From contig NZ_CP047961.1 of assembly GCF_014279775.1 (NCBI RefSeq), forward strand, positions 1,116,001 to 1,180,000: a stretch of DNA of 64,000 nucleotides, written 5' to 3'. Below, piece by piece: positions 22,640 through 39,380 of the stretch. The stretch's first letter is position 1, and the number at the start of each line of letters is the position of its first letter. The position numbers and the translations under genes were made by a program. The notes beneath the pieces are model-generated. The model was not told the origin of the DNA. It ran no database searches and worked only from the letters and a program-made list of their open reading frames with translations. The stretch comes from Synechococcus sp. PROS-9-1 (GTDB taxonomy: Bacteria; Cyanobacteriota; Cyanobacteriia; PCC-6307; Cyanobiaceae).

Positions 22640-22800
22640 CTATCACTGGCTTCTTAAGGTGGTGAACCGCTGTGCCGTGCGAGCCCCAGTGTTCGACCTG
22701 GAGTTACCAGAAGGGACGAAAGATTTCGAGAGGATTCGTTTCCGGCTACGAGGCCGGTTTACGGCACCAACACGACAGTCACCCCATATCGAAAGAGAGT
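22640..22800. ncRNA. Candidate 6S RNA (ssaA/Yfr7) next to purK
   Basis: The segment between the hairpin and purK folds back on itself. GGTGA pairs with TCACC at the ends, GTGCCGT with ACGGCAC inside, and CCGGC-GCCGG and CCAG-CTGG hairpins lie in the centre, giving a long rod with an open middle like 6S RNA. In other cyanobacteria 6S RNA is encoded beside purK, which is the main reason for the call. Strand is unsettled. A TATAAA at about 22630 could be a -10 for + transcription, but in freshwater Synechococcus the gene is reported on the purK strand. No similarity search was possible. Confidence 0.45.
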
Positions 22801-22845
22801 CAGATCAGAGCACTAGAGAAAGGCTGTCACCAACACAGCAGTTCT

Positions 22846-24048
22846 CTACCAATTTAGGGGAAGAGGCCAGATTTCACGAATAGCTTGCAGCATTTGCTGT
22901 CCTCGCTCGGCACGCTCATCAGCGCTATGGCCATTGAGAAGGGTGGTGACATGCCCCACTTTGCGTCCAGGGATCTCATCTTTTCCATACCAATGCAGAT
23001 GCAACGCCTCGATCGAGCGTAGTTTTGAAAGGCGTTGCTCAAGTGGTTCTGCCTGGTCGGCATTGAGACCGAGCAAATTGACCATCAAGGAACCATCGGC
23101 AATGAATTCTGGATTGGGGACATCCAGGCCTGCTGCAATGCAGAGTTGTTGATCAAATTGACTGCTTGAACAGGCCTCAATTGAAAAATGGCCTGAATTA
23201 TGCGTTCGGGGAGCTATTTCATTAACAAATAAACCCTCCGATCCATAGAAAAACTCCAATGTCATCACTCCCACGTAGCTGAGCTTTGTGAGAATTGAGG
23301 CTGCAATGTTGTAAGCCGTTGCCTCAACAAGTTGACTCACTGGAGCAGGAGCAATGACCCAGTCGCAAACCTGATTTTTCTGATGCGTTTCGGCTAAGGG
23401 CAGGCTACGAATTCGCCCTTTTGAATCTCGACTTACAACAAGAGCTAGTTCCTGCTCGTAGGAAACCCAGGCTTCGATTAACCACTCATGGGTATCGACG
23501 TTTCGAAGCAACTGAACCAAGCCGTTTAGATCTTCCACAACCCTTGTGCCCTTTCCGTCATAACCGCCGTAGGCAGCCTTCGCCATGACAGGGAATGTCC
23601 ATCCGCTCGGTAAGGATGGCGATCCAGGATTGAGTTCAGCTAATGAAATCCAATCTGGACTTGGAATTAACAGATCATTGAGTAGTCGCCTCTGGGACAA
23701 CTTATTAACGAGAGGGATCAGGCTTGCCAGTGAAGGAGTGAATTGCACTCCCTGTCGCTCAAGAGGCATCAAAGCATCGACAGCGACCCATTCGTTTTCG
23801 AAGGTGATGCCTACGCAATGCGATGAGAGCTCCCTTGTTGCACGGACATCTGTTGATCCCGCAATCACTAAATCCTTAGCCAGTGAGGCAGCAGGGTCTT
23901 CAGCTTTTGACGCTTGAACCGCAAGCGTCAAACCTCGTGTTTGCGCTGCTTCACCAAGCATGAGGGCAAGTTGCCCTCCACCGATCACCCCAATTGTGTT
24001 GTCAGCGTTGGGCATCCGTTGCAGATCGGTCTGGGTGGAGCTTGTCAT
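22846..24048 (-). CDS. purK: N5-carboxyaminoimidazole ribonucleotide synthase
   Basis: 400 residues; an internal ATG at codon 12 is an alternative start. It carboxylates AIR with ATP and bicarbonate in purine biosynthesis. ATP-grasp features are visible: TIGVIGGGQLALMLGEAA near residue 18, then PVMAKAAYGGYDGKGTRVV near 160, and GLFVNEIAPRTHNSGHFSIEAC, the hallmark of PurK. Normal length. It runs toward the structured RNA candidate and is separated from the next upstream gene by 27 bases. Confidence 0.95.
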   Translation of the reverse strand: MTSSTQTDLQRMPNADNTIGVIGGGQLALMLGEAAQTRGLTLAVQASKAEDPAASLAKDLVIAGSTDVRATRELSSHCVGITFENEWVAVDALMPLERQGVQFTPSLASLIPLVNKLSQRRLLNDLLIPSPDWISLAELNPGSPSLPSGWTFPVMAKAAYGGYDGKGTRVVEDLNGLVQLLRNVDTHEWLIEAWVSYEQELALVVSRDSKGRIRSLPLAETHQKNQVCDWVIAPAPVSQLVEATAYNIAASILTKLSYVGVMTLEFFYGSEGLFVNEIAPRTHNSGHFSIEACSSSQFDQQLCIAAGLDVPNPEFIADGSLMVNLLGLNADQAEPLEQRLSKLRSIEALHLHWYGKDEIPGRKVGHVTTLLNGHSADERAERGQQMLQAIREIWPLPLNW

Positions 24049-38561: not shown

Positions 38562-39161
38562 TTAGTCGATCAGGGCCACCCAGGCAAAGGCAATTCCAAT
38601 ACCCATCCAGATTCCAGCACTGAGTCGACGCCCTTGCTCTCCCAGGCGAGCGATCACAGTTTGCGATAAGGAGCAAACAAGCGCTAATAGAACGCCTTGA
38701 CCAATGAGTAAACCTAAGAAATAGGTGATCAGAGGAGTCGGCTCCGCTCCAACAATGGTGGTACCAAGCAGAAAACCATGGAGGCCGAAGAGCGGCAGAA
38801 GCCAGGCGGCTGGAGCTAGTGAAAGAGCAATCAGGCCCTCAACAACAAGGCTTAGCGACACAAGAGCTTCAGCCCAGGGCGCAATCAAATCTGGTAGGGG
38901 GATGAACTGAGAGATCAGGCTCCCGCCCAGGCCGATGGCCAGCATTGGGATGATCCAGGCGATCGGCCGCTTCAGGCCAATGAATGCGATGGCCAGCAGA
39001 AAGAGCAAATGGTCTGGCCCAAGAAGAGGATGACCAATGCCACTCACTAGACCTGACCATCCACTGAGCTGGCTGCTGTCGCCCATTCCAAACGGGTGGT
39101 GAGCGAAGGCGGGGCTTCCAAGCAGAAGCAAAGGAATTATTCCTAGGGAAGCCCACTTCAT
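38562..39161 (-). CDS. hupE: HupE/UreJ-family metal permease under B12 riboswitch
   Basis: 199 residues from ATG at 39161; the frame stays open upstream but that part is the riboswitch. A signal peptide (KWASLGIIPLLLLGSPAFA) is followed by a mature HHPFGMG and six membrane segments. The metal motif GHPLLGPDHLLFLLAIAF (HPxxGxDH) is the family signature. HupE proteins move nickel or cobalt; in cyanobacteria those behind cobalamin riboswitches are predicted cobalt importers feeding B12 synthesis. A Fur/Zur-like box upstream adds a second control. Confidence 0.88.
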   Translation of the reverse strand: MKWASLGIIPLLLLGSPAFAHHPFGMGDSSQLSGWSGLVSGIGHPLLGPDHLLFLLAIAFIGLKRPIAWIIPMLAIGLGGSLISQFIPLPDLIAPWAEALVSLSLVVEGLIALSLAPAAWLLPLFGLHGFLLGTTIVGAEPTPLITYFLGLLIGQGVLLALVCSLSQTVIARLGEQGRRLSAGIWMGIGIAFAWVALID

Positions 39162-39204
39162 CGGCCGCAGGAAGGCCTGGTTTGAAAGAGTCAAATGTCG
39201 ATCC

Positions 39205-39335
39205 TCGTCGGTTGGAGTTCTGGCGGGCGTTCTGACTGACGACTCCCGAGGAGACGCTTCACAGCTGCGGGACAGCGACGGGGTTTCACCGTTCTTTCCC
39301 CGTTTCCTTCTCAGGCTGACCCCTGAGAAACCAAT
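39205..39335 (-). promoter_or_regulatory. Cobalamin riboswitch
   Basis: On the - strand the core GGTGAAACC (39282-39290), GCTGTCCCGCAGCTGTGA (39259-39276) and the B12 box AGTCAGAACGCCCGCC (39222-39237) occur in the standard order. The stem GGTTTCTCAGG...CCTGAGAAGG lies at the 5' end. It ends 44 bases before the hupE ATG, so control is likely through translation or termination in the leader when adenosylcobalamin binds. Confidence 0.92.
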
Positions 39336-39341
39336 CATCCA

Positions 39342-39347
39342 ATCTTA
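39342..39347 (-). promoter_or_regulatory. Probable -10 box for hupE leader
   Basis: TAAGAT on the - strand lies just upstream of the riboswitch 5' end, placing transcription start near 39335. The matching -35 region would fall inside the Fur/Zur-like box. Confidence 0.45.
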
Positions 39348-39361
39348 GCTCGCGTATTCGC

Positions 39362-39380
39362 GATGAGAATCATTTTCATC
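39362..39380. promoter_or_regulatory. Fur/Zur-type operator
   Basis: GATGAGAATCATTTTCATC is a nearly perfect palindrome with the 7-1-7 core TGAGAAT-C-ATTTTCA, two bases from the TGATAAT-N-ATTATCA consensus of Fur-family regulators. It overlaps the expected -35 of the hupE promoter, a position suited to repression. Fur and Zur cannot be told apart by the site alone. Confidence 0.7.

Follow-up and report, generated by a model that had tools for sequence, protein, structure and literature searches.

The closest described counterparts of the locus considered here are the B12-riboswitch-controlled hupE genes of marine cyanobacteria and the HupE of Synechocystis, which belong to the same carrier family and are likewise placed under riboswitch control according to the available portions of PMC4284471 and PMC7689651. 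In these portions no protein operator is named, whereas the hupE described below carries a Zur-type box on its promoter; the B12 riboswitch on hupE was thus already known, and the Zur-type box beside it is rare. The same review (PMC4284471), in the part available, calls the cyanobacterial cobalt regulatory system unknown.

A second relevant system is the Zur regulon of Synechococcus WH8102 (znuA/znuC, bmtA), in which, as far as the accessible text of PMC9337993 goes, Zur represses znuA and activates bmtA, the first bmtA box partly overlapping the -10 and -35 elements. The regulator is homologous and the box is of the same kind and likewise lies over promoter elements, a likeness that is judged on the znuA boxes of relatives and not on the box letters given in PMC9337993 itself. 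In that accessible text the word hupE does not occur and the few genes reported as Zur-dependent do not include it, while the target in the present case is a carrier of the cobalt type with a riboswitch as a further control. The third system is the Bc1 c-di-GMP riboswitch of Bacillus thuringiensis, where a Zur site and a riboswitch share one leader; however, in the available part of PMC11218506 the Zur site lies within the leader, flanked by two terminators, and Zur binding has a minor effect, and neither the ligand nor the target is metal-related. No account linking hupE and a B12 riboswitch to either Zur or Fur was found in the literature searched, which covered few subscription journals and many sources in partial text.

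The window, i.e. the whole stretch of 64,000 nucleotides that was analyzed, belongs to a genome of 2.27 Mb in one contig (Synechococcus sp. PROS-9-1) and contains the following features around hupE:

38562 to 39194, minus strand: hupE, encoding a HupE/UreJ-type cobalt/nickel permease of 210 aa (PF04955 match), with a TTG start at 39194
39202 to 39206, minus strand: Shine-Dalgarno sequence GAGGA at the 3' edge of the aptamer, with the TTG start 7 bases downstream
39205 to 39350, minus strand: cobalamin riboswitch aptamer (RF00174; 54.4 bits, gathering score 31.5, E 9.3e-11, model positions 1-189 of 189)
39342 to 39347, minus strand: -10 element TAAGAT; 18 of 19 leaders have a TANNNT 12-13 bases ahead of the aptamer core
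39363 to 39379, minus strand: predicted Zur-type operator ATGAAAATGATTCTCAT, 25.5 bits with a znuA-trained matrix, identical at 17 of 17 positions in genome G101
39365 to 39370, minus strand: expected -35 position, at a spacer of 17 and inside the operator, derived from spacing only

Read along the minus strand, the order is therefore operator (39379-39363), -10 (39347-39342), riboswitch (39350-39205), ribosome-binding site (39206-39202) and hupE, with the unpaired 5' flank of the RF00174 match overlapping the -10. At the level of sequence, this arrangement bears out the double control of one carrier of the cobalt/nickel type that an earlier note on this DNA had described, by a riboswitch and a predicted operator; the riboswitch is complete over the full model and lies between hupE and the operator, and the hupE stop falls at 38562, both as that note had placed them. 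A 6S RNA (87.1 bits) is located elsewhere in the window, at 22660-22847 on the minus strand.

In a profile search, the product scores 59.4 bits against PF04955 (cut-off 23) when computed on a shorter form beginning at 39158, and its translation contains HPLLGPDH, which fits the signature HPXXGXDH quoted in the available text of PMC7689651. From the riboswitch and from the Synechocystis HupE treated in the same partial source, we infer that the substrate would be cobalt rather than nickel. The closest named relative found is the metagenome-assembled genome Synechococcus sp. SP2, with a HupE 98% identical to that of the window, and the HupE of G101 is 94.6% identical to it.

The start of hupE is most likely the TTG at 39194, as judged by comparison of 19 leaders, in 18 of which the block G(A/C)GGATCG is followed at 1-4 bases by an in-frame TTG or ATG, with the frame open into HupE; in the exceptional one, L013, a stop follows the start at this block. 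The Shine-Dalgarno block itself reads GAGGATCG in 18 of the 19 leaders and GCGGATCG in the remaining one. An ATG at 39161, considered as another possible start, is disfavored by the conserved ribosome-binding block with its in-frame start in those 18 leaders. Because the ribosome-binding site abuts the aptamer, all but one of the 19 leaders keep the in-frame start, and a search of the hupE leader for intrinsic terminators yielded none, the riboswitch most likely acts on translation, and terminator-type action was set aside on account of the latter finding. Folding of the isolated leader was no better than that of shuffled sequences (z 0.76).

With regard to the promoter, transcription should start at the aptamer edge, since the spacing between the TANNNT and the aptamer core stays at 12-13 bases in nearly all of the leaders. 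A sigma-70 consensus scan of the hupE leader returned no promoter. The overlap of the operator with a predicted -35, as claimed earlier, holds insofar as the spacer-17 position falls inside the box, but there is no consensus -35 in the leader and the element is placed by spacing only.

The operator comprises 17 bp with the half-sites TGAAAAT and TGAGAAT, symmetric at 6 of 7 positions. It had been presented in the earlier note as a near-consensus 7-1-7 Fur-family operator, and while a box of this build is indeed present at 39363-39379, its closeness to the consensus alone is at the chance level: four sites with at most two mismatches to TGATAATNATTATCA, the hupE box included, occur in the 2.27 Mb among the matches listed, and chance would give 3.4-6.6 of them at 54-51% GC. 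As the four sites lie within this expectation, a plain consensus match proves nothing, and the counting of matches to TGATAATNATTATCA was rejected as proof of an operator. This chance-level match could speak for the box being non-functional or belonging to another transcript, in which case the riboswitch would be the sole control of hupE, like in the majority of the picocyanobacteria examined, whose hupE leaders have the riboswitch without a box. Two candidates for such a transcript lie to the right of the box, a doubtful 70-aa ORF from 39627 and a 93-aa ORF from 39976 with counterparts in SP2 and G101, but their starts are about 250 and 600 bases distant from it.

A more discriminating measure was obtained from a matrix built on 10 boxes at the znuA promoters of nine relatives, with the window genome left out. 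The training sites are the best Fur-type matches upstream of one ZnuA type, whose best NCBIfam match is AztC (131 bits, below the curated cut-off of 350) and which would correspond to the znuA under Zur control in WH8102; the other, ZnuA/MntC-like type is mostly without a site, a match of 11-12 of 14 being present at three (L161, L162, and L166) of its 11 loci (L157-L167). In a leave-one-out test by genome, the training sites score 13.7-27.7 bits, the lowest being L170 with 13.7. In the window genome, among the matches listed, this matrix gives 25.72 bits to the genome's own znuA box, 25.48 to the hupE box, and 20.51 to a third site, and the second-best site within the whole window reaches 15.2 bits. 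The probability of at least 25.48 bits is 2.8e-9 per position at 54% GC and 5.5e-9 at the 51% of the window, which corresponds to 0.006-0.012 expected sites per genome.

Conservation points in the same direction. Between G101 and the window the box is identical at all 17 positions, whereas the flanks agree at 53 of 129 (41%; 39/100 upstream and 14/29 downstream), and such an agreement at 41% background identity has a probability of about 3e-7 if positions are taken as independent. The box of SP2 (16/17 identical, 20.2 bits) adds little, because its flanks are also near-identical to those of the window (85/100 and 28/29). By the znuA-trained matrix and by its conservation in G101 against diverged flanks, the hupE operator is more than a chance match, and with so few sites of this score expected per genome, control of hupE by the riboswitch only appears highly improbable.

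As to the protein that reads the box, Zur is the likely candidate. Fur-family proteins have near-identical boxes and the window genome encodes three of them, which leaves room for a reading in which the iron regulator Fur, or PerR, binds and hupE answers to iron. One of the three has as its best solved-chain match 7ne9 (E 2.5e-60), which we take to be the Zur of WH8102, and is regarded as the Zur homologue of the window genome; Zur matches of at least 51% identity were found in 15 of 16 genomes (G152 is without one, and G151 and G286 are near-identical records). In the Prochlorococcus genomes G095 and G153, the site at the znuA promoter (L182, L183) reads ATGAAAATGATTATCAT and is identical to the hupE box at 16 of 17 positions, with zur lying about 0.9 kb upstream of it. 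For comparison with iron genes, ten upstream regions of futA and one isiB promoter, these genes being presumed to be futA and isiB from their sequence, were scored with the Zur matrix, not a Fur matrix, and gave at most 12.2 bits and 7.3 bits, respectively; no Fur motif was seen in the futA upstream regions, the loci having been gathered with PF13416 (PF13343 brought no futA). The motif of the hupE box is thus absent upstream of the ten futA and the isiB genes and present at znuA of nine relatives and of the window genome, which makes control by Fur or PerR quite unlikely. Of the iron or zinc control that the earlier note had proposed, zinc emerges as the most likely from the match to znuA sites, while the iron part finds no counterpart in the tested futA and isiB promoters; the possible zinc-cobalt link suggested there stays the most interesting reading.

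Further sites scored by the Zur matrix were noted in passing. Those of 20.2 bits at L210:2440 and L216:2445 lie about 940 bases past the start of the futA match and probably behind futA. A palindrome CGAGAATGATTCTCG at L148:1491 (G000:C1:582991; 20.5 bits) stands about 118 bases before a 242-aa ORF that has no NCBIfam match. L227 of G216 has sites at 1000 (25.6 bits) and 1538 (23.3 bits), of which the latter coincides with the start of what by eye is a COG0523-like GTPase, a classical type of Zur target. At the znuA promoter of G123 (L178) two Zur-like boxes occur in tandem, the second of which differs from the core of the hupE box at the centre base only.

In the model that we consider probable and the best explanation of the arrangement, a Zur operator over the -35 and a cobalamin riboswitch would together restrict HupE to conditions in which both zinc and cobalamin are low. 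Zinc-loaded Zur would occupy the -35 region and block RNA polymerase, so that hupE would be transcribed only at zinc shortage, and plentiful (pseudo)cobalamin would close the ribosome-binding site, so that the message would be translated only at a shortage of the cofactor; with both gates joined, the importer would be produced when zinc and cobalamin are low, and the imported cobalt would serve B12 and, in low-zinc water, perhaps substitute for zinc. Repression would be the simplest reading, because the box covers the expected -35 and would fit a block of the polymerase. Counted in favor of this model is the cluster of G101, where hupE is followed by a porin and a ZnuACB-like transporter on the same strand, together with the Prochlorococcus arrangement described further below; counted against it are the absence of hupE from the Zur-dependent genes given for WH8102, relatives with a HupE 89-90% identical in which the box is missing, as well as the activation of bmtA by Zur in WH8102 (accessible text of PMC9337993), which makes repression uncertain.

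That same precedent, with its box partly over the promoter elements, lends itself to a model in which Zur binds and activates hupE at high zinc, so that a dedicated cobalt importer is made when zinc competes for shared uptake. Competition of zinc with cobalt uptake has in fact been described for Prochlorococcus MIT9215 (Hawco and Saito 2018, as cited in the available part of PMC8374608), and in Prochlorococcus the boxes, often in 2 or 3 copies, precede the gene of a Cys-rich, metallothionein-like peptide beside hupE. However, the window has one strong box over the expected -35, which is a repressor position, and this box most resembles the znuA-type sites that are Zur-repressed in WH8102, which renders activation unlikely.

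Returning to the zinc-and-cobalamin gate, the gene neighborhood of G101 (L217:3921-8915) places hupE in a row with a porin and an ABC transporter, the third of ZnuACB-like type, on the same strand behind the box and the riboswitch, a gene order that may represent a cobalt or zinc uptake operon. The window and SP2 are without the porin and ZnuACB-like genes, and their hupE is directly followed by a gene for an RNA methyltransferase that is likewise found at the border of the G101 cluster. An OprB-type porin resembling the one in G101 follows hupE at 12 Synechococcus-type loci (L005-L010, L035-L038, L040, and L051), partly contig-cut or broken; within 1.5 kb of hupE none is present at L012 and L013. 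Downstream of hupE in Synechococcus MU1642 an IsrR match was observed (L037:4888-5059, 57.8 bits). A second cobalamin riboswitch exists in G101, SP2, and G123, in G101 before a second hupE beside zinc-transporter genes. Whole-genome searches of the window genome found a single match to its HupE and one cobalamin riboswitch; as a second riboswitch is missing there, the doubly controlled hupE is its sole copy.

Among relatives the two elements are distributed very differently. The hupE loci collected are those with a closer HupE, i.e. 70 of the 137 matches of one search (the weaker 66 and one twin being left out) and 20 from a second, and 80 of these 90 were scanned with Rfam; the remainder are L042, L043, L046, L048, L050, L056, and L079, identical upstream to a scanned locus, and the distinct L078, L082, and L084. 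The cobalamin riboswitch is present at 73 of the 80 (19, 17, 18, and 19 of 20). The seven loci without it are L047, L049, L052, and L077, which have Zur-like boxes and the peptide gene, and L021, L026, and L063, which have neither riboswitch, Zur-like box nor peptide gene, so that loss of the riboswitch is not always paired with a box. Of 83 distinct leaders, taken as the 600 bases upstream of the HHP codons, seven score at least 18 bits and an eighth 17.9; these are the window, G101, SP2, and the Prochlorococcus loci L047, L049, L052, L077, and L078, the last having no riboswitch by motif. The box is paired with the riboswitch in three of the 83 leaders, those of the window, G101, and SP2. 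A strict pattern of riboswitch start plus box, which requires GAAACCA and the exact core and would miss other variants, gave eight matches in 400 family genomes, three of them true (G000, G101, and G286, the last with the same sequence as SP2); by eye, those in G109, G112, and G329 were taken as chance, that in G216 is the box at the COG0523-like gene, and that in G341 is a znuA promoter.

Asked whether both elements recur upstream of hupE in other Synechococcus, as the earlier note had suggested checking, one may say that the riboswitch does and that the box is restricted to a narrow group; the combined control is therefore not a general trait of Synechococcus, and its riboswitch part was already known on hupE (PMC4284471, available part). 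It was also observed that the HupE of G089, from another genus-level group (L006, L035), is 89% identical to that of the window, and those of G123, G141, and G075 from the same genus (L010, L012, and L066) are 77, 76, and 62% identical. Transfer of the hupE locus between groups is one possible explanation, its duplication and loss another.

A different arrangement is found in some Prochlorococcus. In MIT 9314, for example, presumably a high-light adapted strain, hupE lies behind the gene of a 45-residue Cys-rich peptide, with the AHHP codons 109 bases past the peptide stop, and sites of 17.4-20.1 bits stand upstream of a peptide gene preceding hupE in eight genomes. In three of three whole genomes of this peptide-hupE type (G095, G136, and G153) the cobalamin riboswitch is absent. 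In the genus-level group g56 (AG-402-A21, AG-402-G06), the order is boxes, peptide, riboswitch, and hupE, with best sites of 14.8-20.3 bits in five genomes.

The peptide (...CPGCGCVCPCECTDCEECSPCKDH), which is about 45-50 residues long, occurs in 26 of 400 genomes (at L047, L049, L077, L231-L238, L243-L246, and others), with some copies away from hupE. Its promoters reach at least 17.4 bits in 19 of the 28 scored, many of which are from near-identical genomes, and stay below in 9; by chance, 17.4 bits would be attained in about 0.3-0.4% of AT-rich 300-base promoters. The peptide has no Pfam or PHROG match and one NCBIfam match far below its cut-off, and is a candidate metallothionein of Prochlorococcus; MIT9312 and NATL2A are described as being without a metallothionein gene in the available text of PMC8374608.

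Since the peptide-hupE arrangements with Zur-like boxes are separate from the stacked controls of Synechococcus, hupE may have come under zinc control on more than one occasion. On this basis a broader model can be put forward tentatively, which we hold to be possible but somewhat short of an even chance: the cobalt importer would have come repeatedly under Zur, in Synechococcus as a zinc-and-B12 gate, and in some high-light Prochlorococcus by exchange of B12 control for Zur control, with HupE made together with the as yet undescribed peptide.

The replacement of zinc by cobalt and the decisions on cobalt uptake in picocyanobacteria are questions of ocean trace-metal biology, and the operator and riboswitch on hupE suggest that a small group of marine cyanobacteria adjusts its cobalt uptake to the supply of zinc. 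An operator for Zur at this gene would provide a concrete, testable wire from zinc status to cobalt uptake, and the Prochlorococcus arrangement offers an abundant group in which to test it, together with a candidate metallothionein. If the repeated capture of hupE by Zur is true, zinc status would govern cobalt uptake in abundant ocean lineages, as a circuit for cobalt-for-zinc substitution or for protection from cobalt.
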